IMG/VR virus record: IMGVR_UViG_3300038360_000332
Span: 1 to 24,066 of that record
DNA from: a virus
Strand: one strand, 5' to 3'
DNA length: 24,066 nucleotides
Positions within the stretch are counted from its first letter, which is position 1; the number at the start of each line of letters is the position of its first letter. Shown here one piece after another: positions 3,337 to 23,328 of the stretch. The notes beneath the pieces are model-generated. The model made no database searches. It saw only the letters and a program-made list of their open reading frames with translations, and was not told the DNA's origin. The translations under genes were made by a program, and so were the position numbers.

Positions 3337-6300
3337 TGGCCACTGACAGATGGATTCAGGTCCCACAGGGCTGGCTCGACCACTTCTCTTCCAGGTCAAC
3401 CTCTGTCGGCCCAGCCAATATCTGGATCTACACCCGCCCCTACGAGGGCGGGGCTCTCAGTCGGATAACTGACCATGAGGAATTGCTGTCGTGCGATGAC
3501 TTTGCATGGTCTATCGATTTTGAGAAATTCGGAGGCCTCGGCAAAGGCAAAGACACCTCCTTCGTCTTCACCAAGAAGACCGACTATTTCACCACGACCC
3601 TCACCAAAGACCAGATCGGTGACGATCTTGTCGTGTATGTCCGGTTCGGGGATGCCGACTTCGATGACGGCTCCTTTGGGATGAGAACCTTGTTTGTCGG
3701 TCGCATCACCGAGATCAAATACGAGGAAGACAGTACCGTAGAGATCACGGCGCACCACCACTTCGAATGGTCCATGGACAACGAGGCTCCTGATGATTGG
3801 TATGCCCTCACTCCCGACAGGTACGTCTCAAGCCCCAAGACCTTCAAGGGCCGCGACCCCGGTCAAGGAAACTTCATCCTCAATGACCAGATCGAGGATT
3901 CTGAGCGGTGGGAAGATGCCGACCTAACAAACTACGATGCGAACTGGCCGAAGACATACTCTGTCTGGATAGAAGAGGACGTTAACGACTGGTGGTACAC
4001 TGACACTAGCTCTGGTGGACCCCGGATATGCAACAGGGAAGGCAACACGCCATACGCCTACACCTGCGTCGATGACAACCGATCACTCGTTGTCGTTAAG
4101 ACCCAGGGGCATACCATCAGCGGGACCTGGGACACCGATGTCCAGAGCGGCCTGAATTGGTTTGGTGCCTATCACCCCTTCACCTCCGACCCTCCTTACG
4201 GGACCCAGACCGCCTACCTGAATGAGATCTACTACTGCATCACCCCACCAGCAATCAAGTACGTTGATGGCACAGGGCAGACGCCACCACTCGGCCTAGT
4301 AAACCAAGGCGCTACGGCGCTCGTCAGTGGGGGCTGCTCCGCATGGTCTGGGCCATCCCCCTCCAAGGGTTCCAGGAAGCCCCGTGGCGCTGATGTCTGG
4401 AAGGTGCATTTCCAGGAGGACACGCCGGTTGGAGATGGCAATGACGGGGTAACACATCCGATCTTCCTCCCGGACAGGATTGAGAGGCCCTCCCTCTCCG
4501 AGGGTAATCCGATTTCTGGCGCACGGTTCAATAACTGGCGGCTGTTCGGCATCAGGCAGGCCGCTGGGCTCAACAACAATGTTTGCCCCCACATGGGTTG
4601 GGACCCTGGGGGCAACCACAGCTACAGCCATCATGCATACGACTACTACCCCTGGAAGGTTAAGAAAGAGAATGGCGCGTGGGTGGACGATGCCCATGGC
4701 TGGATCTCCTACGCGGCCACATTCATGGACCTCAAGGAGGAGAACCAGTCGCTCTGGCCGGATGTAAGGCAAGGCCCAGGCGATGTTGCAACAAGCTGGC
4801 CCAGCGGTGACAAGGATTCACCATGGCTGAGAGTCGCCTATTGCCCCGGGCAACGCTGGTTAACTGGCATCAGCGGCATGGTGTGGCCAGGGTCGGCTGT
4901 GGTGTCCACCAGGGACGAGCCATGCCAGCTTATATACTCTGTCCTCTCCAAGGTGTGGAGGTACGGTAGGCCTCCCACCTTCGACATCGACACTGGGGTC
5001 TCCTCTGGGATAACCGGTGAGGACCTGTTCTGGCCCGATGGCGCTCACACCCTGACCACAGGCTCCTATGACAATTCTTATTCCTGGGTTGGTCAACAGT
5101 ATTACCAGCGGGACGCCAACCGATGGCCCGGGTCTTCTAAGTTCCAGGACCAACGTGGTGTGCGTGTCGGACTAACCGAGGCTGACATCACCCCCAAGGA
5201 GGCCTGGAAGAAGCCCATAGAGACTTTGTGTCGCGGCCTGGGCTTCTATGTGTTCTCCACCCCCTGGGGCGGGGTTGATGTCTGGTGCCAGAACGGTAGC
5301 CCTGGAGCCGGGGATAACAATTGGACTTTCTCTGCCGACCTGAGTGGCGACACACCGTTGCCTGGGGACCAGACAACCAGGAACGTCTGGGGTGTCGAAT
5401 ACGATTGGCATGACTGGAAGGTTGTCGAACATGTCGAATACAGGTACAGAGCCCTGTACGAGGAGACCATAGACCTGGAGTCCCCAGGCTTCATGCCGAC
5501 CGGCGTGATCAACACAGAGTCTCGGTCGGTGAAGTCCTCCTTAACGCCTACAGGGTTCAGGACAAAGCCGAAGCGTTTCGGGTCCGGGCAAGGGTTGGTC
5601 TTTGATGTAGGGTCGGACCCAGACGACACAACCTGGGTCCAGGGGATCTCTGATGATATCAACGCCCTGTATGGCACCCTTCATTCCAGCATCTCCTTCT
5701 CGACAACCATCGATGCCTTCTGGGATGACAGCAACGAATACTTCATGCGAATTGGCAGCGGGTTCTACTTCACCGACGCAGAGGCCGGTGTCAGCGGGTT
5801 CTACTGGGTGACCGGATTTTCCATGAACATCATCGCTGGCACCATGGAGATCTCTGGTGTCAGTGCTGGTGCCGAACCAGGCGTCTATGACCCTGTGACC
5901 GATGACCCTGCACCCTTGACCATCCCAGCGAACATTGTCATGACTGCCCCTGTCAGCACGACTGTCCATTCTGAAGGCCTCCTCTACAATATTGGCTGGG
6001 GCAACCTTACCGGCACCACGCTCATATCTGGAGATCCTGAATTCTCCCTGGATTGGGGCAGTGGGATCTACGACCTCCGTCATTACGAAACCGTAAGGCC
6101 GGTAGTTGCATTCACCCCGACCGGCGTGGGTACCTTCACCGGATACATCACCTTCTCCGGTGGCGACCATGGCATCATTCCGATAAATGGAACCGGCTGG
6201 GCACCAAGCCCCAGGGGGCTAACCAGCATAGACTTCAACCCTACCGATATGGGCAGGGGGTCTCAGGAGACCTGGATAGTCTCCAACACCTCGCCGTCGG

Positions 6301-6599
6301 GGTCTCCAGCACTGTCTTCCGTGGTATCCCTCACCAATGACAGCAGCAAGAACGCTTTCTCCATTACCTCGGCAGACAAAAACAAAGTTCCACAGTATCA
6401 GATGTATGTAGAGGCCGGTAGCGGCACGGACTCTATCGAGGTCTCCTTCTGGCCGACTTCCTCTGGCGTTCACACCGGGACTCTTTGGACAGACTTCCCG
6501 GCCCCTCATAATGAGATAACCTTGAGTGGTATGGGGGTCGATCCAAGGGCAGATTCTGCCGCAAGCACTTCCTCCATCTTCTTGCTCATGGGAGGCTAG
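3336..6599 (+). CDS. Large tail-tip/baseplate hub-like protein with C-terminal ASH (choice-of-anchor D) repeats
   Basis: This 1087-residue structural protein lies in the position of a tail hub or tip protein. The first 150 residues form an acidic beta-rich domain (strands around VFTKKTDYFTTTLTK and RTLFVGRITEIKYEE) like hub proteins. The middle is unusually rich in Trp, Tyr, Asp and Gly. Residues about 860-1066 hold two Ig-like repeats of the ASH/HYDIN choice-of-anchor D type: each has an FTPTGVGTFTGYITFSG or FWPTSSGVHTGTLW strand pair followed by a closing strand (IIPINGTGW, EITLSGMGV). Such repeats are usually adhesion or scaffolding modules on surface proteins, so I infer contact with host or capsule. 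A Ser/Ala tail ends the protein. The start overlaps the previous stop. Confidence 0.82.
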   Translation: MATDRWIQVPQGWLDHFSSRSTSVGPANIWIYTRPYEGGALSRITDHEELLSCDDFAWSIDFEKFGGLGKGKDTSFVFTKKTDYFTTTLTKDQIGDDLVVYVRFGDADFDDGSFGMRTLFVGRITEIKYEEDSTVEITAHHHFEWSMDNEAPDDWYALTPDRYVSSPKTFKGRDPGQGNFILNDQIEDSERWEDADLTNYDANWPKTYSVWIEEDVNDWWYTDTSSGGPRICNREGNTPYAYTCVDDNRSLVVVKTQGHTISGTWDTDVQSGLNWFGAYHPFTSDPPYGTQTAYLNEIYYCITPPAIKYVDGTGQTPPLGLVNQGATALVSGGCSAWSGPSPSKGSRKPRGADVWKVHFQEDTPVGDGNDGVTHPIFLPDRIERPSLSEGNPISGARFNNWRLFGIRQAAGLNNNVCPHMGWDPGGNHSYSHHAYDYYPWKVKKENGAWVDDAHGWISYAATFMDLKEENQSLWPDVRQGPGDVATSWPSGDKDSPWLRVAYCPGQRWLTGISGMVWPGSAVVSTRDEPCQLIYSVLSKVWRYGRPPTFDIDTGVSSGITGEDLFWPDGAHTLTTGSYDNSYSWVGQQYYQRDANRWPGSSKFQDQRGVRVGLTEADITPKEAWKKPIETLCRGLGFYVFSTPWGGVDVWCQNGSPGAGDNNWTFSADLSGDTPLPGDQTTRNVWGVEYDWHDWKVVEHVEYRYRALYEETIDLESPGFMPTGVINTESRSVKSSLTPTGFRTKPKRFGSGQGLVFDVGSDPDDTTWVQGISDDINALYGTLHSSISFSTTIDAFWDDSNEYFMRIGSGFYFTDAEAGVSGFYWVTGFSMNIIAGTMEISGVSAGAEPGVYDPVTDDPAPLTIPANIVMTAPVSTTVHSEGLLYNIGWGNLTGTTLISGDPEFSLDWGSGIYDLRHYETVRPVVAFTPTGVGTFTGYITFSGGDHGIIPINGTGWAPSPRGLTSIDFNPTDMGRGSQETWIVSNTSPSGSPALSSVVSLTNDSSKNAFSITSADKNKVPQYQMYVEAGSGTDSIEVSFWPTSSGVHTGTLWTDFPAPHNEITLSGMGVDPRADSAASTSSIFLLMGG

Positions 6600-8041: not shown

Positions 8042-8427
8042 TCACTGAGAAGAACTTCTTCGGTGAGACCGATCCAGATGTCGGCGGTGAGACCGAGTTC
8101 ACCAATTGCAATTTCGCGCATCCACAACCTGTCCTCGATGGCGCTGATTACATCGGTGTCCGTGTCTTCCCTGGTGATGACACACCCAGGACCTTCACTC
8201 GCTGCAATCTGGTGAACTGCGAAGTCCCTCCTGGCAGCACCATGACCAAGTGCAACAGAGCGATTGTTCGCAGGAACGTTGTCACCAACTCCGAGGACAT
8301 TGTAATCGGTGCCGAGACCATCACGGTGGAGATCAAAGCCAACCTTTGCTATGGCCACCAGATCGGCCCCGGGATCTACAACTACTACGCCGTGCCGTCT
8401 GAAGACGGGATCGACCCGGAGGAATAA
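8038..8427 (+). CDS. Beta-helix-like tail accessory protein
   Basis: This 129-residue protein starts in an ATGA overlap and ends in TAATG with the next gene. It has spaced Asn/Cys ladders: FTNCNF, FTRCNLVNCEVPPGSTMTKCN, then VIGAETITVEIKANLCYG. Repeats of this kind are typical of short right-handed beta-helix or pentapeptide-like turns, and similar short proteins sit beside fiber or spike genes. It is probably a fiber tip or spike accessory. The Cys residues fall at ladder positions rather than in a metal-binding CxxC pattern. Confidence 0.75.
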   Translation: MITEKNFFGETDPDVGGETEFTNCNFAHPQPVLDGADYIGVRVFPGDDTPRTFTRCNLVNCEVPPGSTMTKCNRAIVRRNVVTNSEDIVIGAETITVEIKANLCYGHQIGPGIYNYYAVPSEDGIDPEE

Positions 8428-9470
8428 TGGCCACCTACTACGTTGACACTGCTGTCGGGAACGATGGGAACGCTGGCACCAGTGAAGGTGCTGGCAACGC
8501 TTGGGCCACCATCGACCACGCCATGAACACCCTCTCCGCTGGTGATCACATCTACGTCAAGGCCTCCGGCGATTATACCGAGATGGCGACCATCGACACC
8601 GCTGGCACGGCATCCGCCTCGGTCATCATCGAGGGTTACACATCAACCCCCGGCGACGGCGGCATGGCGACCATCGACGCCACGGGCCTGAATAATGGCA
8701 TCTTCTACACCACCTCGACCTACCAGTATTATGCCTTCAGGAACATCACGGTGGAGAACGCCGACTATGACGGGTGGAACCTCTCCAGCCGGTACCTCAT
8801 CATGTTCGAAAACTGCCAAGCCCTGAATTGCGGAATCCGTGGGTTCGACACTGGGGGGTTCACCAGCTTTGTCGATTGCGTGGCCACGGGCAATTCCAGT
8901 GATGGCATCTATGCCGAGAACGATATCAAGGTCATCGGTGGAGATATCAGCGGCAATGGCGGGTATGGAGTCCGGTGTCCTGGGTACAGTGGTGTTGCCT
9001 TCGGCGTGATGGCGAACTCCAACGCAAGCATCGGCCTCCAGGTCAGGCGTGGTGGCACTGCGATCAACTGCACCGTTGATGGTGACAGCAAGGACACTGG
9101 CTCCGGCGTGGACTTCTCGGGCTACTCAGACTTTACCCATGTCCTCGTCAATACCATCATCTACGACTGCGTGAATGGGATCAACGGAGATGCGACCCCA
9201 TGCAATGGGTTTGCCATTGGCCGGAACAATCTCATCAACGGGAACACAAACCAGTATGTCAACTGGGAGACGGATGCCCAGGCCACAGACATCACAGATG
9301 CGCCTGGGTTCACGGCAGAGGGTAGCGACTACACCCTTGGGGCAAGCTCCGCTGCCAGGAACGCCGGGTATGATGGCAGTGGGTCGAGTTCCCCTGGCAT
9401 GGACATCGGCGCTCATCAGTCTGCCGATGCTGGTGGAGGGGGCGTCACCACTGTGGTCATCACCGGGTAA
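8427..9470 (+). CDS. Right-handed beta-helix tail spike/fiber protein
   Basis: This 347-residue protein begins MATYYVDTAVGNDGNAGTSE, the start expected for pectate-lyase-like parallel beta-helix (DUF1565-type) repeats, followed by AWATIDHAMNTLSAGDHIYV. Repeated coils rich in N, G, V and I (FENCQALNCGIRGF, FVDCVATGNSSDGIYAEN, VIGGDISGNGGYG) run to about residue 300. The end reads GSSSPGMDIGAHQ, a common C-terminal closure of such helices. It may bind or degrade a host surface polysaccharide, but no catalytic residues can be assigned by eye. It is the last structural gene before the lysis gene. Confidence 0.85.
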   Translation: MATYYVDTAVGNDGNAGTSEGAGNAWATIDHAMNTLSAGDHIYVKASGDYTEMATIDTAGTASASVIIEGYTSTPGDGGMATIDATGLNNGIFYTTSTYQYYAFRNITVENADYDGWNLSSRYLIMFENCQALNCGIRGFDTGGFTSFVDCVATGNSSDGIYAENDIKVIGGDISGNGGYGVRCPGYSGVAFGVMANSNASIGLQVRRGGTAINCTVDGDSKDTGSGVDFSGYSDFTHVLVNTIIYDCVNGINGDATPCNGFAIGRNNLINGNTNQYVNWETDAQATDITDAPGFTAEGSDYTLGASSAARNAGYDGSGSSSPGMDIGAHQSADAGGGGVTTVVITG

Positions 9471-9479
9471 AGGAGCCAC

Positions 9480-9995
9480 ATGCTCTCCCCACATTTTGGC
9501 CTACATGAGTTCACGAAGGCGTCGGTCGGGAGGAAGAAGTTCCAGGTCAAGCTGTCCTCGGTGGGGTATTACCTTGCCGAGAGACTCGCCCTCGACATTC
9601 TTGAGCCTGTCAGGGTCAATGAGGGACGGCCAGTCCGGGTGACCTCTGGGGCACGGTCCTGGGCAGTCTATGATGCGATGGTCAAGGACCGAGAAGGCAC
9701 GAACAAGAGCAAGCCCTCAAAGAGGTCCGACCACTTCTACGCCAACCATGTCCATCCCTATGGAGTTGGGGCTGCCGACATCACCTTCCACGGTATCGAC
9801 CCCTTGCACCTGATCGCCTGGATCATGGCCGAGGGGATTCCAGTGGGTCAGGCAATTGCTTACCCGTCCAACAGGTTCGTCCACCTCTCCAACCCAAGGA
9901 CTGTCCTGTTCGCCCTGGAGGCCATTGAGGTCTTGCCGCCGAAGGCTCGGTTCCTGGTCTGGACACCCGACTTGGGATACAGGAACCTTGCCTGA
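9480..9995 (+). CDS. Endolysin-like peptidase, M15 (D-Ala-D-Ala carboxypeptidase/VanY-like) family
   Basis: This 171-residue zinc peptidase probably cuts peptidoglycan peptides. It has the M15 architecture: RVTSGARS at 53-60, then SDH at 83-85 and GVGAAD at 95-100, and a third ligand in RFVHLS (His135). The ligands I infer are His85 or His92, Asp100 and His135. An insertion (FYANHVHPY) separates the first His from the Gly-x-Ala-x-Asp part. There is no signal peptide, so release would need a holin; none is adjacent. The start has AGGAG six bases upstream. Position directly after the fibers fits a lysis gene. A structural role as virion-associated lysin is also possible. Confidence 0.85.
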   Translation: MLSPHFGLHEFTKASVGRKKFQVKLSSVGYYLAERLALDILEPVRVNEGRPVRVTSGARSWAVYDAMVKDREGTNKSKPSKRSDHFYANHVHPYGVGAADITFHGIDPLHLIAWIMAEGIPVGQAIAYPSNRFVHLSNPRTVLFALEAIEVLPPKARFLVWTPDLGYRNLA

Positions 9996-10020
9996 CAATG
10001 CCATGAGACTGATAGTCATG

Positions 10021-10106
10021 TCAACCCCTTTCCCCCCTCCTCTCCCCTTCCCCCCCTCCCCCTTACAATCCCCCTCCCCCCTAACCCCCCTCCACCCCCC
10101 AATCCC
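10021..10106 (+). terminator. G-free polypyrimidine tract; candidate Rho-utilisation site after the late operon
   Basis: These 86 bases contain no G on the + strand and are almost all C and T, with runs of five to seven C. They lie just after the endolysin stop, in a 250-bp gap that lacks a hairpin-plus-T terminator. C-rich, G-poor RNA is the hallmark of Rho-dependent termination sites, so I infer that the late transcript ends here. The complementary strand has many G runs of four or more and could form G-quadruplexes. Confidence 0.5.
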
Positions 10107-10485: not shown

Positions 10486-11406
10486 ATGGAGACTGACCTG
10501 AAGCAGTTCGGCATACCGGACAACTTCCCGATAGTGATCAATACCGACTCACCTGACTGGGAGACCAGGGCCAAGTTGCAGGCCCCCTTCCCGGCTCATG
10601 ATGTCGAATGGAGGATTGATCGGGTTGGCAAGAAGCGCGGTGGAGGTATTTGGGCGAAGATCCTTGCCTACATCAATAACCGCGCAATCATGAACCGACT
10701 CGATGATGTCTTCGGCCCCTTGGGCTGGGATACCGTCATCGCCCCGGTTGGCAATGGTGGCTTCCTTTGCACCATCACGGCAGGAGGAGTAGGCAAGACA
10801 GACGGCTCCGAGGTGACCAACTTTGCAGCCTTCAAAGGCGGCATCTCTGGTTCGATGAAGAGGGCCGGTTCTCAGTGGGGCATTGGCCGATACCTGTACT
10901 ACCTGGAGGAGGGCTGGGCACAGATCGATAGCTCCTCATCCCTGGTGACCCCCAACTTTGCCAACGTCAATCTGGCCAAGAAGGGCCAAGCCGCCGATTG
11001 GGCGAAATTCTACTGGGGGCCTCCCGAGATGCCGTCCTGGGCCTTGCCTCCTGAAGGCTTTGTGAGGGTCCCTGGGAGCGCGGTGTTGGCCGCTGGGTCA
11101 TCCACTGTGATAGGTGACGAGGATGGAACCCCAACGGCCCCTCAGGTGGACACAGACGGCTATGCCACGAAGAAGCAGATGTACTTCATCCATGGTCTGG
11201 CCAAGGAGCGCAAGACAGCGGAGGCTCTCAAGGACCCCGAGTTTGTGGCCATCTACGAGAAGTATGTCCAATGGGTCAACGAGGGCCGGGAACGCAAGGG
11301 TGGCAGGGTGGCTGACACCGTACCCTTCAAGGCGATGGCCTTGACAGACTCAGAGGCCGACAGGGTGATTGAGGTCCTTGAAAGTTGTTCGAAACACCCC
11401 GAGTAG
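10486..11406 (+). CDS. Rad52/Sak-family single-strand annealing protein
   Basis: This 306-residue protein looks like a phage Rad52-superfamily recombinase, which coats single-stranded DNA and anneals complementary strands. Signature segments are AYINNRAIMNRLDDVFGPLGW, a beta strand region FLCTITAGG, and SGSMKRAGSQWGIGRYLYYL, which match the Rad52/Rad22 core of Sak-like proteins. The core spans about residues 35-180. The C-terminal 100 residues (KKQMYFIHGLAKERKTAEALKD onward) form a helical domain that may bind partners such as SSB. GAGAGTGAGAG supplies the ribosome-binding site. An SSB gene two genes downstream supports the role. Confidence 0.88.
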   Translation: METDLKQFGIPDNFPIVINTDSPDWETRAKLQAPFPAHDVEWRIDRVGKKRGGGIWAKILAYINNRAIMNRLDDVFGPLGWDTVIAPVGNGGFLCTITAGGVGKTDGSEVTNFAAFKGGISGSMKRAGSQWGIGRYLYYLEEGWAQIDSSSSLVTPNFANVNLAKKGQAADWAKFYWGPPEMPSWALPPEGFVRVPGSAVLAAGSSTVIGDEDGTPTAPQVDTDGYATKKQMYFIHGLAKERKTAEALKDPEFVAIYEKYVQWVNEGRERKGGRVADTVPFKAMALTDSEADRVIEVLESCSKHPE

Positions 11407-12781: not shown

Positions 12782-13504
12782 ATGGATGAATGGACAGGAA
12801 ATCCACAGTGCGAAGACGGGTATGTAAGGATTGCCAACGAACTCTTCGAAGTCCTCATGGCAATGCCGATGACAGTGCGAGAATTCAAGGTCATGCTGGG
12901 CATCATGAGGATGACCTATGGGTGGAACAGGAAGACCGCGAGGCTGGTCCAGAAGAATCTCGCCATCATGACTGGCATCGATCCCACCAACCTCTCTAAG
13001 ACGATCAAGGCCCTCAGGGCCAAGGCTATGATTTTTGTGGATGAGAACCGCATGGTCACGGTCAACAAGAGGTACCGCGAATGGGTGGTCGGGGACATGA
13101 AGTTGTCCATCGAGACCACGTTCATCGGTGCCCTTCGGAAGAGGGGTCTGTGGAATGGCAAGAAGTCTGGCCTAGTCCCGGCTGATTGGGTCAGGTTGGC
13201 AAGGTGGGCTGGTGAGGTCGGCCTAGAGCCCTTTGTGGATAAGGTGGAGTCGAAGATGGCCAAGGTGAGAATCAACTCCCTTGGCTTCTTCTTTGCCGAC
13301 ACCCATGGGTCGTGTGTGTTTGAGAGGGTCTACTTCAGGGAGATGGAGGCGGCATGGGAGAGAGAAAAGCGCTCAGAGGCCGATTCGTTACCGCGAAGGC
13401 AGCACGAAGAGAACTCAGGGAGCTTGGCATCATCAAGGGACATTTTAAGGGGCTTGTTCGGCCAGGAGTTCGGGGAGACTCAGGAGCCCTTGTCGCAGGA
13501 GTAG
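12782..13504 (+). CDS. Replication initiator, lambda O-like N-terminal domain
   Basis: This 240-residue protein probably binds the phage origin and recruits helicase. Residues about 12-95 read as a phage replication protein O N-terminal winged-helix domain: GYVRIANELFEVLMAMPMTV, then FKVMLGIMRMTYGWNRKTAR, LAIMTGIDPTNLSKTIKALR and MVTVNKRYREW. The start at 12782 is preferred because it follows the previous stop; a longer reading from 12656 overlaps the previous gene. The last 50 codons overlap the next gene in another frame, an unusually long overlap. No helicase or helicase loader is recognisable nearby, so the host helicase is likely used. Confidence 0.83.
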   Translation: MDEWTGNPQCEDGYVRIANELFEVLMAMPMTVREFKVMLGIMRMTYGWNRKTARLVQKNLAIMTGIDPTNLSKTIKALRAKAMIFVDENRMVTVNKRYREWVVGDMKLSIETTFIGALRKRGLWNGKKSGLVPADWVRLARWAGEVGLEPFVDKVESKMAKVRINSLGFFFADTHGSCVFERVYFREMEAAWEREKRSEADSLPRRQHEENSGSLASSRDILRGLFGQEFGETQEPLSQE

Positions 13505-13938
13505 ACCCATCATCGCAAGGCCACTGCATCACTTTCATGCTCTCCAGTCCTCAAGTCCCCCAGTATTATTCCCTGCAAGTGGACAATGATACGTCGTCCT
13601 ATGCCAGCCTGTACCGACGGCTGGCTGAGTTGCCGGTGAACGATCACACCGTCTTCATCGAGGACGCCTACCTGGGACGAAACCCCAAGAGCCTCATCGT
13701 GGCCGTGACTGCACGGGCGAAGTTGCAGGTCATCTTTGAACTGGCTGGATGGAGGGTCGTGATGGTCAAGCCCTCGTCCTGGCAATCGCCAATTCTGAAA
13801 CAGGGCTGGGGGGCACACCGTCCAGAGTTGAAGGGCGCGGCCAAATGGTTAACCAAGCTCCTCACGGGGGAGAGCCCCAAGAGCGACATGTGCGACTCCT
13901 TCTGCATCTGCATCTATGGACGAGGAAGAAATTCTTGA
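13354..13938 (+). CDS. RuvC-like Holliday junction resolvase
   Basis: This 194-residue protein has the RuvC/RNase H-fold active-site pattern: Asp51 in VAGVDPSSQG, Glu103 in VFIEDAYLGRN, and Asp178 and Asp181 in SDMCDSF, with VVMVKPSSWQ between. It would cut branched DNA formed by recombination or replication before packaging. The core runs from about residue 45; the first 45 residues are basic and overlap the end of the initiator gene by 151 bases. GGAGATGGAGGCGG precedes the ATG, supporting this start, but a later non-ATG start cannot be excluded. Family fit is by motif and spacing. Confidence 0.83.
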   Translation: MGERKALRGRFVTAKAARRELRELGIIKGHFKGLVRPGVRGDSGALVAGVDPSSQGHCITFMLSSPQVPQYYSLQVDNDTSSYASLYRRLAELPVNDHTVFIEDAYLGRNPKSLIVAVTARAKLQVIFELAGWRVVMVKPSSWQSPILKQGWGAHRPELKGAAKWLTKLLTGESPKSDMCDSFCICIYGRGRNS

Positions 13939-13971
13939 CAGTGTTATCGTGTGTTGTATACAATTCTGTCA
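13935..13971 (+). promoter_or_regulatory. Promoter with flanking TGACAG/CTGTCA inverted repeat
   Basis: TTGACA (13935-13940) is followed by TATACA (13957-13962, 16-base spacer) or TACAAT (13959-13964, 18-base spacer). The -10 lies in the perfect palindrome TTGTATACAA (13954-13963). TGACAG (13936-13941) and CTGTCA (13966-13971) form an inverted repeat around the promoter, as expected for a repressor site. The next gene encodes a LexA-type winged helix. Confidence 0.65.
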
Positions 13972-13993
13972 GAACAATGGAGAGGAGGTGACT

Positions 13994-14284
13994 ATGACAA
14001 CAGTATGGAGAGGGAAGGAGGCGAGGATGGACAAGTGTCTGATTGCCTTCGCCCACCTGGCCAAGGAGAGGAAGTTCCCACCGAGCCTGAATGAGATTGC
14101 TGAAGAGATGGGCGTTGCCTATGCAACGGCTCACCTCGCGTGTGCCGATCTGATCGAGGCTGGCTTAATGGTGAGGGAAGTTCCGAATCAGGCACGATCC
14201 CTTTGTTTGACGGGTGATGGAAAACGCCGACTGCCAAGAGCGCGGTCGAGAAAGACGAGGGCCAATGGTGGAAGGGCGGCGTAA
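13994..14284 (+). CDS. LexA-type winged-helix DNA-binding protein without protease domain
   Basis: This 96-residue protein has residues about 15-65 (LIAFAHLAKERKFPPSLNEI, AEEMGVAYATAHLACADLIE, AGLMV) that match the winged helix-turn-helix of LexA's N-terminal domain. The autoproteolytic domain is absent and the C-terminus is a basic Arg/Lys tail (KRRLPRARSRKTRANGGRAA). The start at 13994 has the very strong site GGAGAGGAGGTG and lies 30 bases past the promoter; an upstream start would overlap that promoter. It is a candidate regulator of the shared promoter element. Target and ligand are unknown. Confidence 0.8.
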   Translation: MTTVWRGKEARMDKCLIAFAHLAKERKFPPSLNEIAEEMGVAYATAHLACADLIEAGLMVREVPNQARSLCLTGDGKRRLPRARSRKTRANGGRAA

Positions 14285-15896: not shown

Positions 15897-16170
15897 GAAG
15901 CACTGGGCAGACGCCATGACCAGGGAAGTAGGAGGCCACATCTTTCACGATGGTGTCGGCCTGTACGCCCAGATCACCCGAGACAGGCTCAAGAGGAGGC
16001 TCTGGGCCAGGGAGATATTACTCCGTGAGATGGCATGGTATGAATACCAACTGAAGGAAGGCAGTAATGGGAAAGAGAATTTCACTGATGCCCCTGCATC
16101 CAGCCATGGAGACCAGGAAGGCAGTCGAGACCCGGGTCAACGATACCCGGATAACGGTGAGGAAGCATAA
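15889..16170 (+). CDS. Hypothetical small helical protein
   Basis: This 93-residue protein starts at an ATG that overlaps the previous stop by eight bases. Residues 1-60 are mostly helical and basic (AQITRDRLKRRLWAREILLR). The last 33 residues are low-complexity, polar and charged, and lie entirely within the overlap with the HTH gene in another frame, so that tail may be under little constraint. The ribosome-binding site is weak. Function unknown. Confidence 0.6.
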   Translation: MSEKHWADAMTREVGGHIFHDGVGLYAQITRDRLKRRLWAREILLREMAWYEYQLKEGSNGKENFTDAPASSHGDQEGSRDPGQRYPDNGEEA

Positions 16171-16699
16171 CAGGGAGGACTTCGGCCAACTGGTGAAGGC
16201 CCTCCGTGAGACACATGGACACAAACAGAACTGGTACGGCAAGAAGCTCGGCAGGTCCTACGACTGGTTGAGCCGGATCGAGAGGGCTCACCACAAGAGC
16301 ATCAACCTCCAGGCTCTCCGTGGCCTTGAGAACATACTGGGCCTGGAGGAGGGCAAGCTGGTCTCCTGGGCCAAGTATTGTGGGTACTCCTTCATCATCC
16401 CCAAGGGGTACACGGTCTCGGCCTCTGTCACGGCCCTTGTCGAGGGTTACTGCAACAGTGAGAAGTTGCCGAAGTTGCCAGCCAAGGCCGACGACCTCCC
16501 ACTGTTCGAACCGAAGGTATCCACAGTCACGACCGGGATCGAAGTCCTGGAGTCGAGGTGTCTTGTGGTGGACGGGTGGACCCTTGAGGACTGTGAAGGG
16601 TACTGGAGCCTGAAGAACGACAAGAACGGAAAGGTTATGCCCATCCTCCACAGTGACATGGACAAGATCCTGGCTCTCTTCGAAAGGGCACAGTCATGA
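16067..16699 (+). CDS. XRE-type helix-turn-helix regulator
   Basis: This 210-residue protein carries a Cro/C1-type HTH at about residues 38-95: DFGQLVKALRETHGHKQNWY, GKKLGRSYDWLSRIERA, INLQALRGLENILGLEEGKL. The C-terminal 100 residues (TVTTGIEVLESRCLVVDGWT and after) are not the S24 peptidase of C1/LexA-type repressors, so it would not be cleaved during SOS. The start at 16067 has GAAGGAAGGCAG upstream but overlaps the previous gene by 104 bases; ATG 16109 is an alternative with poor ribosome-binding site. It overlaps the next gene by ATGA. It is a possible repressor for the phage operators. Confidence 0.8.
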   Translation: MGKRISLMPLHPAMETRKAVETRVNDTRITVRKHNREDFGQLVKALRETHGHKQNWYGKKLGRSYDWLSRIERAHHKSINLQALRGLENILGLEEGKLVSWAKYCGYSFIIPKGYTVSASVTALVEGYCNSEKLPKLPAKADDLPLFEPKVSTVTTGIEVLESRCLVVDGWTLEDCEGYWSLKNDKNGKVMPILHSDMDKILALFERAQS

Positions 16700-18186: not shown

Positions 18187-18624
18187 CTATTTGGACTTGC
18201 CTACCGATCCCCCAGCGGCCTTCTTCGCCTTGGTCTTGGCATCCTTCAGCTTCTTGACCCTCTCGTCCCAGGCCGTGGAGGCCTTCGGGGACAGTTCCTT
18301 GTTCTTCGTGAAGATCCACTTGCCCCTGACCGACTTGGCCTTGCCAGAGATGGTGACTCCACCGAGGTTGATGGCTGCCGACCTGGACCCATCGTCCCTC
18401 TCCTTGTTGGAAGTCAGGTAGATCTTACGATCACTGCCGAGGTCCAACCCCTCGACGGTGCCATTCTGGTGACGGTCAGGGATTGCCACGTTGGTGGCTG
18501 CCTTCGGGTCGATGACCCTCTTGACGGTGACCTTCTTGGCCACTGCCTTCTTGGCCACTTTCTTGACAGCCTTCTTGACCGTCTTCTTGGGGACCGATTT
18601 GCTGGTCCCAGTGGAGGTGTTCAT
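18187..18624 (-). CDS. Lysine-rich basic protein, histone-H1-like N-terminus
   Basis: This is a 145-residue protein. Residues 8-40 are Lys/Ala/Val repeats (SVPKKTVKKAVKKVAKKAV), like the tails of bacterial histone-H1-like proteins, and the C-terminus is again Lys/Ala-rich. Between them lies a compact beta-type domain (GTVEGLDLGSDRKIYLTSN, GGVTISGKAKSVRGKWIF). It probably binds DNA, perhaps compacting phage or host DNA. GGAAGGCG precedes the ATG, a promoter lies 55 bases upstream and a terminator follows, so it is a single-gene unit. Confidence 0.84.
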   Translation of the reverse strand: MNTSTGTSKSVPKKTVKKAVKKVAKKAVAKKVTVKRVIDPKAATNVAIPDRHQNGTVEGLDLGSDRKIYLTSNKERDDGSRSAAINLGGVTISGKAKSVRGKWIFTKNKELSPKASTAWDERVKKLKDAKTKAKKAAGGSVGKSK

Positions 18625-20543: not shown

Positions 20544-20741
20544 CTACTTGTATCGAGGGAAGTAGGACACTGGTATGCAGTTGGCTCCCAGGTTACTGGT
20601 CACAGGTTCATCGAACTCTTCCGACCCTGCCACTGAGGGCACAGAGTCTTCGTCAAAGGTCAGGTAGAACCTCGTCCCATCGGGCAGGTTGAACTGATAT
20701 TTCACGATCTCCCCTTCGGGCAGGTCAACGGTGATCTTCAT
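20544..20741 (-). CDS. Small beta-rich hypothetical protein
   Basis: This 65-residue protein is best started at the ATG with GGAGG six bases away; a GTG one codon upstream also fits. The start overlaps the previous stop as TGATG. It reads MKITVDLPEGEIVKYQFNLP then GTRFYLTFDEDS: two or three strands, acidic, then a Tyr-rich end (VSYFPRYK). Last gene of the leftward cluster. Function unknown. Confidence 0.72.
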   Translation of the reverse strand: MKITVDLPEGEIVKYQFNLPDGTRFYLTFDEDSVPSVAGSEEFDEPVTSNLGANCIPVSYFPRYK

Positions 20742-20959
20742 CACTCACCTCCCTTCATCACTGAGGCCATCATCTGGAGGACTTCAGCCTTCCTGGCCAT
20801 GTCGTCCTCGGTGAGGACCCGTCCGGTCAGGTGGCACACTGGCGCGGCCATCCTGTGTTCGATTTGCAGTCGGGCCTGTTCGGTTCGTCCTATGGCCTCG
20901 ACCAGTGTCATCCAGGAGATGGTAGTCTTCCTGACGGGCGTCCTCTTGGGCTGTTCCAT
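20741..20959 (-). CDS. Small helical hypothetical protein
   Basis: This 72-residue protein is best started at the ATG directly after the previous stop, with GGGAGAGG upstream; a longer reading by five residues exists. It is basic at the N-terminus (MEQPKRTPVRKTTISWMTLV) and then helical (EAIGRTEQARLQIEHRM, EDDMARKAEVLQMMASVM). One Cys and one His are not enough for a metal site. It may bind nucleic acid; no family is recognised. Confidence 0.74.
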   Translation of the reverse strand: MEQPKRTPVRKTTISWMTLVEAIGRTEQARLQIEHRMAAPVCHLTGRVLTEDDMARKAEVLQMMASVMKGGE

Positions 20960-20961
20960 GG

Positions 20962-21264
20962 CTACCTCTCCCATTCGACTTCACCGGGGAAGGCCCCGGC
21001 CTCGACGGTGTTCGGTGGGTACTGGTCATCGATCCGGCTGCCACAGTGGTAACAGACCCGCTGCCCCCCATCGGGGGCGAGGCCCGACCATCCGTGGTCA
21101 CAGATCTCGGCTGCCTTGGCCCAATCGTCGGCCTTCATGGCAGCCCGGGTCCGGTCCAGTCGGTGGCCATGTTCACGCCCGAGGGCCTGCCACTCGGCCT
21201 GTTCCATGTCGGCGTCCCACCGTTCCTGTTCGATGGCTTCCTGTTCGTATCCTGGATCTTCCAT
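20962..21264 (-). CDS. Hypothetical protein with CYHC knuckle
   Basis: This 100-residue protein has an acidic, Glu/Gln/Trp-rich helical N-terminal half (EQEAIEQERWDADMEQAEW), then ICDHGWSGLAPDGGQRVCYH with CG, i.e. Cys, His and CxxC that may bind one zinc. The end is PNTVEAGAFPGEVEWER. GAGGTG lies upstream. It starts three bases after the previous stop. Probable phage-specific zinc-containing protein. Confidence 0.76.
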   Translation of the reverse strand: MEDPGYEQEAIEQERWDADMEQAEWQALGREHGHRLDRTRAAMKADDWAKAAEICDHGWSGLAPDGGQRVCYHCGSRIDDQYPPNTVEAGAFPGEVEWER

Positions 21265-21267
21265 GCT

Positions 21268-21477
21268 TCACACCTCACGGTAGGGGTCGTAGGGTAGGAT
21301 CTCGGTGAGTTCGAAGGAGGGGTAGTTCTCATACCCTTCCCGGATGAAGTCCTCTGTCTCATCTCCACGGCAATGGGCGACCTGATGATCTCCGTCGATC
21401 ACATAGGCCACGGTCACCTGTGCCCCACGGGGGGCAGTCAGGTGTTCGGTGATGAAGGACTCGGTTTCATGCATCAT
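21268..21477 (-). CDS. Small hypothetical protein
   Basis: This 69-residue protein starts at the first of two ATG codons, six bases after GGAGG and within the upstream gene, whose stop it overlaps. A longer reading from 21570 would overlap that gene by 104 bases and has no ribosome-binding site. It has a beta segment (QVTVAYVIDGDHQVAHCRGD) and an acidic/aromatic C-terminus (YENYPSFELTEILPYDPYRE). Function unknown. Confidence 0.74.
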   Translation of the reverse strand: MMHETESFITEHLTAPRGAQVTVAYVIDGDHQVAHCRGDETEDFIREGYENYPSFELTEILPYDPYREV

Positions 21478-21742
21478 CGTTGTCCTCCAGGTGACTGTGG
21501 GCAAACACGGTGGTGGCATGGGTCCGGCGACCGGCATGTGTTGTGACGAAATCGGTGTTGGGGTGGCCATCGTCCATGTAGGCGTTCATCTTGAGGGTTC
21601 CGAACTTCCATGCATCCTGGCTTCCCAGGAAGGCTCCCTGGATATCGACCACCAGTCTGTGGGTCCCTTCGTTGTCAACCAGGGCCAGGGTGACGGTCTC
21701 CCCTCCCTCGATCAACACGGTCCTGTCTTTGGCTTCTGTCAT
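21467..21742 (-). CDS. Small hypothetical protein, beta-rich
   Basis: This 91-residue protein has GGAAGGAAG upstream of the ATG. Strands run VLIEGGETVTLALVDNEGTH, RLVVDIQGAFLG, and the C-terminus is His-rich (TTHAGRRTHATTVFAHSHLE). The His cluster might bind metal. It lies mid-operon and overlaps the next start. No family is recognised. Confidence 0.76.
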   Translation of the reverse strand: MTEAKDRTVLIEGGETVTLALVDNEGTHRLVVDIQGAFLGSQDAWKFGTLKMNAYMDDGHPNTDFVTTHAGRRTHATTVFAHSHLEDNDDA

Positions 21743-21773: not shown

Positions 21774-22088
21774 CTAGGCTTCCTTCAGGTCCTCGTTCTC
21801 GATCTGTTTCTCAGTCATCAGGTCCCTGTTCTTGACTTCCTTGACGGTCCCTCCATCGGAGAAGAGGACGGTGTGCCCGGGTCGGCTGATGAGGCCTTCC
21901 TCGTCAACCTCGATGTCCATATCGTCTCTCATGGCATGGACAATGACTTGGGTGGTCTCGCCACACCCAGGGATCATGCAGGCCGTTATCAAGACGGACC
22001 CACCATGGGGACCGGAGACGAAGATCTCCTCCCCGTCCTCAAGCTTGACCTCCTGGATCTTGGTGCCGTTGTCTCTGTCGATTTTCAT
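21774..22088 (-). CDS. Hypothetical acidic protein
   Basis: This 104-residue protein is the first gene of the 22.1-20.5 kb leftward group, with AAAGGAACC before the ATG and a promoter with an operator-like dyad 54 bases upstream. It is beta-rich (IQEVKLEDGEEIFVSGPHGG, SVLITACMIPGCGETTQVIV, GHTVLFSDGGTVKEV) with an acidic C-terminal tail. CMIPGC may be a disulfide or metal pair. Function unknown. Confidence 0.78.
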   Translation of the reverse strand: MKIDRDNGTKIQEVKLEDGEEIFVSGPHGGSVLITACMIPGCGETTQVIVHAMRDDMDIEVDEEGLISRPGHTVLFSDGGTVKEVKNRDLMTEKQIENEDLKEA

Positions 22089-22220: not shown

Positions 22221-22553
22221 CTAAGTCATATCGACCAGGAGGAGGTAGAACCGTTCTATGGCCCATCTCATGGTGGCCTCGCCAAAGCCAAGGTGGTATT
22301 GGGGGTCGTCGGTTGTCTCAAGACCCCTTAGCTCATGTTCAATGGCTTGGCCTATCTTGTCCCACCTTAGCTCGGTGTCATCTGTGGGTGGCCATAGCCA
22401 AGATTCCATCATCCCGGTCAGGTAAGCCGCCGTCCTCTCCTGGTCCAGGGTCCAGGTCAGCCTGTCTCCCCAACCTTCGCCAAGGACCTCGACCATCCTG
22501 GTGTGAACCTCGCCTTTATACATGATTTCGCCTTTCCGAGGGAGGACCGTCAT
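22221..22553 (-). CDS. Hypothetical Trp-rich helical protein
   Basis: This protein has 110 residues from ATG 22553 (AGGAGAGGAGG upstream); an internal ATG at 22523 with AAAGGCG is an alternative giving 100 residues. It is helical and acidic: HTRMVEVLGEGWGDRLTWTL, TAAYLTGMMESWLWPPTDDT, RWDKIGQAIEHELRGLETTD, MRWAIERFYLLLVDMT. It is the first leftward gene beside the repeat-rich region and so a likely early gene. Function unknown. Confidence 0.76.
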   Translation of the reverse strand: MTVLPRKGEIMYKGEVHTRMVEVLGEGWGDRLTWTLDQERTAAYLTGMMESWLWPPTDDTELRWDKIGQAIEHELRGLETTDDPQYHLGFGEATMRWAIERFYLLLVDMT

Positions 22554-22650
22554 TGGCCTCCTCTCCTGATAAGGATATCACCGTCAACCTAGTGCCTTCA
22601 ATGAGGATAGATCGTCCCAGGCTCAGATTCGGTCGCCATATCCGACGAGG

Positions 22651-22686
22651 TGTACCAAACGGTACAGGGGTGTACCATATGGAACA
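22651..22686. promoter_or_regulatory. Tandem operator-like dyads TGTACC-N4-GGWACA
   Basis: TGTACC-AAAC-GGTACA (22651-22666) is a perfect dyad with 6-base arms. TGTACC-ATAT-GGAACA (22671-22686) is the same with one arm mismatch. They are 20 bases centre to centre, about two helical turns, as expected for cooperative repressor dimers. Confidence 0.7.
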
Positions 22687-22874
22687 GTGTCTCCCCAACC
22701 TGACGAAAGAGGGAGAGAGAGGACGGAGATGTGTGGTGGAGAAGACGGAAAAAGGGGTAGTCGCCATGACTGGCCTGTTAACTTTCATCTGGGCGAGGAG
22801 ACCTCAGTCTAAGACCCCTAGCTCCAGTCCGTTAGTTGTAGGCGGGTACACACTGAGCATCAACCTGGGTAGGC

Positions 22875-22941
22875 ACTAGTCCGTTTCGGGGCGAAGTCCT
22901 CCCCTAGTCTCTTGAGATGACGATGACTAGTCCGTTTCGGG
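22875..22941 (+). repeat. Direct repeat ACTAGTCCGTTTCGGG, two copies
   Basis: Identical 16-base copies lie at 22875-22890 and 22926-22941, 51 bases apart. Each is followed by GGCGAAGT (22890-22897 and 22956-22963). The flanking sequence can form hairpins, e.g. GCCGGT (22941-22946) with ACCGGC (22973-22978). Confidence 0.75.
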
Positions 22942-23101
22942 CCGGTGACCTACCAGGCGAAGTTCTCGGGAAACCGGCTGAGGACCGTTCAAATTGTAAC
23001 AGCCATGTTCCAACTAAATTGTAAAAGCCATGTACCAACTAAATAGAAGAAGCCAGGAATAGGTGTTAGGCGAAGTTGGGTCATATCACCCAAGGCGAAG
23101 T
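22890..23101 (+). repeat. GGCGAAGT motif, four copies
   Basis: Exact copies lie at 22890-22897, 22956-22963, 23069-23076 and 23094-23101, all on the + strand. Four copies of an 8-mer in 212 bases is far above chance. Confidence 0.7.
22991..23057 (+). repeat. 25-bp tandem repeats (iteron-like)
   Basis: Two adjacent 25-base units at 22991-23015 and 23016-23040 differ at only two positions, and a degenerate partial third unit follows (23041-23057). Each full unit contains TTGTAA then AGCCATGTWCCAACT, i.e. the TGTWCC half-site of the upstream dyads. A further TGTACC followed by TTACAA lies at 23121-23134. Confidence 0.75.
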
Positions 23102-23178
23102 GGGGTTCGGATTCAAGATCTGTACCTGTTACAAAAGGTTCTTTTGGGGGATTTCACCCGAATCTCCCTGCTTGGTGT

Positions 23179-23205
23179 TGGCATGGTAATTGATGGTCCA
23201 TGCCA
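23179..23205. promoter_or_regulatory. Inverted repeat TGGCATGG/CCATGCCA
   Basis: TGGCATGG (23179-23186) and CCATGCCA (23198-23205) are perfect 8-base arms around 11 bases. They lie just upstream of an AT-rich stretch. This could be an operator or a hairpin; there is no T-run to suggest a terminator. Confidence 0.5.
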
Positions 23206-23255
23206 GAAATGAATAAAACCAAATAAAGATTCAATAGGAATATCAAAGATAGGTG

Positions 23256-23284
23256 TTGATATCATTGTCAAGGTTTGGTATCTT
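23256..23284 (+). promoter_or_regulatory. Rightward promoter for the basic 109-aa protein
   Basis: TTGATA (23256-23261), a 17-base spacer and TATCTT (23279-23284) give a promoter with a leader of about 40 bases before the ATG at 23329. Confidence 0.6.
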
Positions 23285-23328
23285 TAGGGCATGGGGAATT
23301 CTCCCCTACAAAGGAAAGAAGGAAAGAC

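Follow-up and report, generated by a model that had tools for sequence, protein, structure and literature searches.

A predicted tandem TetR/AcrR-type operator upstream of a leftward gene block in a phage sequence

The window analysed here, a whole linear virus record of 24,066 bases, contains two palindromes (dyads) of the form TGTACC-N4-GGWACA, which lie in noncoding DNA, 98 bp ahead of the start codon (ATG) of a small leftward gene, ORF 22221-22553(-). In form they are identical to sites that stand beside TetR genes in many bacteria. Judging from sequence comparison, we consider it fairly probable that the dyads constitute a tandem TetR/AcrR-type operator, predicted to repress the leftward gene block. 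We infer protein binding, repression and a TetR-family binder, which would be supplied either by the host or by phage sequence outside the known part.

The dyad pair and its surroundings

Both dyads (TGTACC-AAAC-GGTACA and TGTACC-ATAT-GGAACA; Table 1) were found where the first-pass annotation had placed them, the second following the first at a spacing of exactly 20 bp (gap 4). They are the only exact matches to the dyad form in the record. The motif scan of the window found no further copy with up to one mismatch, and permitting two mismatches added one site, at 8730. With a matrix built on TetR-adjacent sites, which gave the dyad scores of Table 1, the best site in the window after these two scored only -2.2. 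The TetR-type palindrome TGTACC-RNNY-GGTACA is present in the window, in dyad 2 with one arm variant, GGAACA, which was allowed by the search and is rare at TetR-adjacent sites (6 of 178).

Table 1. Features of the dyad locus and of the adjoining leftward gene block.
Feature	Coordinates	Strand	Description
Dyad 1	22651..22666	.	TGTACCAAACGGTACA; perfect 6-bp arms; N4 = AAAC (R..Y); score 27.1
Dyad 2	22671..22686	.	TGTACCATATGGAACA; one arm mismatch; N4 = ATAT (R..Y); score 22.4
First gene of leftward block	22221..22553	-	110 aa; ATG preceded by Shine-Dalgarno-like AGGAGAGGAGG
Small leftward ORFs	21774-22088, 21467-21742, 21268-21570, 20962-21264, 20741-20974, 20544-20744	-	from ORF list
Noncoding region	22554..23274	.	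~700 bp between leftward block and rightward genes; contains dyads and other short repeat sets
25-bp tandem repeat	22991..23055	+	2.6 copies; origin of half-sites 23006 and 23031

ORF 22221-22553, whose Shine-Dalgarno-like sequence is strong and whose product has no match in Pfam or PHROG, would be the gene regulated by the dyads. It probably forms one transcription unit with the further leftward ORFs of Table 1; nothing above the Pfam cut-off was obtained for those small ORFs that were scanned. No convincing sigma-70 promoter was seen at the dyads, and the sigma-70 type may not be that of the host. On the other side of the noncoding region the rightward genes start at about 23.3 kb, after a promoter-like sequence at 23256-23284.

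Several other repeats were observed in the noncoding region. Between 22821 and 22954, AGTCCGTT occurs three times about 52 bp apart and the 16-bp ACTAGTCCGTTTCGGG twice, and GGCGAAGT is found four times within 22890-23106. Elsewhere in the window, ORF 18187-18624(-) encodes a lysine/alanine-rich protein with KKAVKK-type repeats, which resembles histone H1 and has no Pfam match. An Erf/Rad52-type annealing protein (10486-11406) and a RuvC-like resolvase (13354-13938) are encoded near an O-like initiator, and by their sequences these genes are a putative recombination-replication module.

Relatives and extent of the phage genome

The genome is probably longer than the window, which would then be one piece of it. 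A search with the tape-measure protein identified one identical overlapping contig of 30.9 kb (G001), which has no dyads and stops short of the dyad region. Together they represent about 45 kb and probably fall short of the complete phage genome. The motif is not equally frequent elsewhere in the phage, a point on which the first-pass annotation had staked its reading: no copy occurs outside the locus in these 45 kb. DNA queries and protein queries (the products starting at 23320, 16067, 12674, which is O-like, and 19056, RadC) returned no relative covering the dyad region from viral_contigs and no close one from phages.

The upstream part of the same phage (L136; contig IMGVR_UViG_3300038358_000286, 20066-30944) encodes QueC (8179-8742), GTP cyclohydrolase I (8739-9389) and, in the QueE position, a radical-SAM protein (9296-10036), which likely form a 7-deazaguanine DNA-modification cluster. 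Its ORF 5236-6339 has no Pfam match and is possibly DpdA-like.

The motif class in bacterial genomes

A collection of 84,980 bacterial and archaeal species (genome_contigs) was scanned for pairs of TGTACC-N4-GGWACA and of TGTWCC-N4-GGWACA dyads at most 28 bp apart. At least 117 stretches with paired dyads were obtained, in unrelated phyla, of which 101 loci were kept after minisatellites of Bacteroidales and Bacteroidetes MAGs had been removed by inspection. Among the matches listed, a TetR/AcrR-type frame lay at most 1 kb from the pair at 89 of the 101 loci, a TetR-like frame lay within 200 bp or overlapped it at 76, and only eight TetR-like frames were separated from it by more than 2.5 kb; these fractions hold for the paired sites listed, since a scan that demands pairs favours families using pairs, and the count is slightly favoured by eight of the loci's own regulators, from which our HMM profile for TetR-like frames was built. 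Pfam TetR_N matched all eight regulators that were scanned with it, six above the curated cut-off and two just below.

The spacer carries a preference of its own. N4 was left open in the scan, so the search did not impose it, and among the matches listed it took the form R..Y in 161 of 178 TetR-adjacent sites versus 13 of 58 minisatellite matches. The 20-bp spacing (gap 4) of the window recurs at four of the loci listed, three of them beside TetR genes.

Some of the bacterial loci resemble each other in gene content. A paired operator, a TetR-family gene and a Polyketide_cyc2 (SRPBCC) gene occur together at L043 and L024, and a paired operator, a TetR-family gene and a DUF1348 gene at L049 and L071, with Pfam assignments for L043 and L049 and assignments by eye for L024 and L071.

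Paired dyads in other phages

When viral contigs were scanned with the same motif, four records were found. Three of these (L003, L004 and L006) are from unrelated phages and have their pairs in noncoding, intergenic DNA. The pair of the fourth (L005) was dropped, being an in-frame coding repeat (FVPIGTP). A scrambled motif of equal composition found one record in the viral contigs, again a coding repeat, and no intergenic pairs. Over the four phages that include the window, seven of the eight dyads obey the R..Y rule (P ~0.0004 if 0.25 is taken as the rate by chance), in a sample that is small, with four pairs in all.

No protein common to the window and the three other dyad-bearing phages was found, and a search for a regulator common to them likewise yielded none. 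Compared with the overlapping contig, the three gave two weak matches only, to terminase-like and ParB-like genes. Because the other three phages share no protein with the window, a common phage-encoded binder is unlikely.

Candidate binders

TetR_N (PF00440) had no match in the window, the overlapping contig or the three other phages, and our own profile, run at full sensitivity, found no TetR in the phage sequences searched. Thus no recognisable TetR-family gene is adjacent to the dyads or present in the known 45 kb, and a host protein may therefore be the one that reads the site. The binder may also be encoded in phage sequence beyond these 45 kb, or be an unrelated protein whose specificity is similar.

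The first-pass annotation had named the XRE-type protein encoded at 16067 or the replication initiator as possible binders, an assignment that the comparisons above do not support: the motif belongs to the TetR type, the XRE gene has no copy of it with up to one mismatch, and no protein of the window recurs in the three other dyad-bearing phages. The same evidence bears on a broader alternative, in which, on the pattern of lambda-like immunity, a regulator that the phage itself encodes and that is not a TetR would use the dyads as its operator, the likeness to TetR sites being no more than a resemblance. Repressors of lambda-type phages typically have tandem palindromes at an early operon, and the window does encode two candidates, an XRE/HTH_31 protein (16067-16699; HTH_31 E 1.5e-07) and a winged-helix protein (13916-14284) with weak matches. 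Neither gene adjoins the dyads, however, and with up to one mismatch the window has no motif copy at either gene, the XRE repressor's own promoter included, so that a site for autoregulation is lacking; both dyads, moreover, satisfy the N4 rule of TetR-adjacent sites. We regard this alternative as rather unlikely. An AlphaFold model of the 16067 protein was discarded for its low confidence (pLDDT 36.5).

Half-site density and chance

Around the dyads the first-pass annotation had reported a cluster of seven TGTWCC half-sites, denser than in random sequence. The density was borne out and the count was not: on both strands of 22651-23126 there are eight half-sites in 476 bp, GGTACA at 22845 having been overlooked, and the densest 476-bp stretch in 300 Markov-1 sequences as long as the window never held more than five. 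Four of the eight are the arms of the two dyads and two (23006 and 23031) come from one 25-bp tandem duplication, which we judged not to be part of the operator. As dyads and duplication account for six of the eight, the half-sites are not independent. Across the whole window TGTWCC is in mild excess (32 observed versus 23.3 expected).

The cluster had been read as the binding network of one dimeric protein. An operator pair for a dimeric repressor is well supported by the occurrence of the same motif beside TetR-family genes in bacteria; the extension to single half-sites is not supported. These lack a second arm at the spacing of a dyad, and the 16-mers in register at 22845, 23006, 23031 and 23121 score -25, -27, -21 and -9, far below the dyads. 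Since the lone half-sites fail as dyads, they should not be counted as members of one binding network.

A second alternative holds that a chance palindrome was duplicated as a 20-bp tandem repeat in repeat-rich noncoding DNA and has no binder. The copies are indeed such a repeat, with 84% identity, and lie among other repeats. When 300 random 24-kb sequences were tested, with the half-site left free and gaps from 0 to 10 admitted, 13 contained two like dyads of comparable quality, so that by geometry alone such a pair is expected in about 4% of cases and goes beyond chance only modestly. Against this, the copies differ at three positions, two of which sit in the 4-bp spacer, meaning that the arms are preserved, and the motif matches a large class of real operators, whose N4 preference both copies meet. 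The occurrence of the motif elsewhere is the stronger evidence, and we hold a duplicated chance palindrome to be improbable.

That the dyads are RNA hairpins in a leader, or belong with the 25-bp repeats to a replication origin, is very improbable: the arms could pair in RNA, and several repeat sets, the 25-bp tandem repeat among them, are followed by an A+T-richer stretch, but RNA folding of the region showed no excess (z -0.27), Rfam had no match in it, the stem of dyad 2 has an A-A mismatch and the half-sites inside the repeats are not dyads.

Comparison with known systems and implications

The E. coli NemR box, TAGACC-N4-GGTCTA, is an operator of the TetR/AcrR family. The FadR operator of T. 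thermophilus, TTRNACYNRGTNYAA, belongs to the same family (PMC5597230). Like such operators, the sites described here are short palindromes of the kind bound by a homodimer, in this case of 16 bp with 6-bp arms, set in tandem beside a putative target promoter, and their sequence is the same as at sites near TetR genes in many bacteria; unlike them, they are not accompanied by a TetR gene, either as a neighbour or anywhere in the 45 kb of known phage sequence. With the OR/OL operators of lambda-type phages they have in common tandem dyads about two turns apart that head a leftward gene block, but the motif class is different and no repressor gene is adjacent. In phage GIL01, promoter P1 is controlled by host LexA (PMC4551915). 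The operator set in the window would work alike, being directed to a repressor that the phage itself would not encode, although its half-site is TGTACC rather than a LexA box, and the host control that we infer here has been shown for GIL01. Literature searches for TetR operators of the TGTACC type, and for phage-borne TetR operators in general, found nothing relevant.

In a tandem TetR/AcrR-type operator, each 16-bp palindrome TGTACC-RNNY-GGWACA would take one repressor dimer. The two dimers would lie side by side, their centres 20 bp or about two helical turns apart, over or beside the promoter of the small leftward genes, and the block would be kept off until the repressor releases.

Paired TGTACC-RNNY-GGTACA dyads offer a searchable handle for TetR-linked sites across phyla. 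As for the phages, we tentatively suggest that tandem operators for a TetR of the host stand at the head of a gene block in unrelated phages that have no TetR gene themselves, such that a small-molecule-sensing repressor times the expression of that block or, alternatively, that phage DNA titrates the repressor. If a host TetR reads the site, a phage gene block would be tied to the ligand sensed by the host, and the precedent of GIL01 and LexA would, if this is true, be extended to ligand-sensing repressors, of which the TetR family is a very large one.
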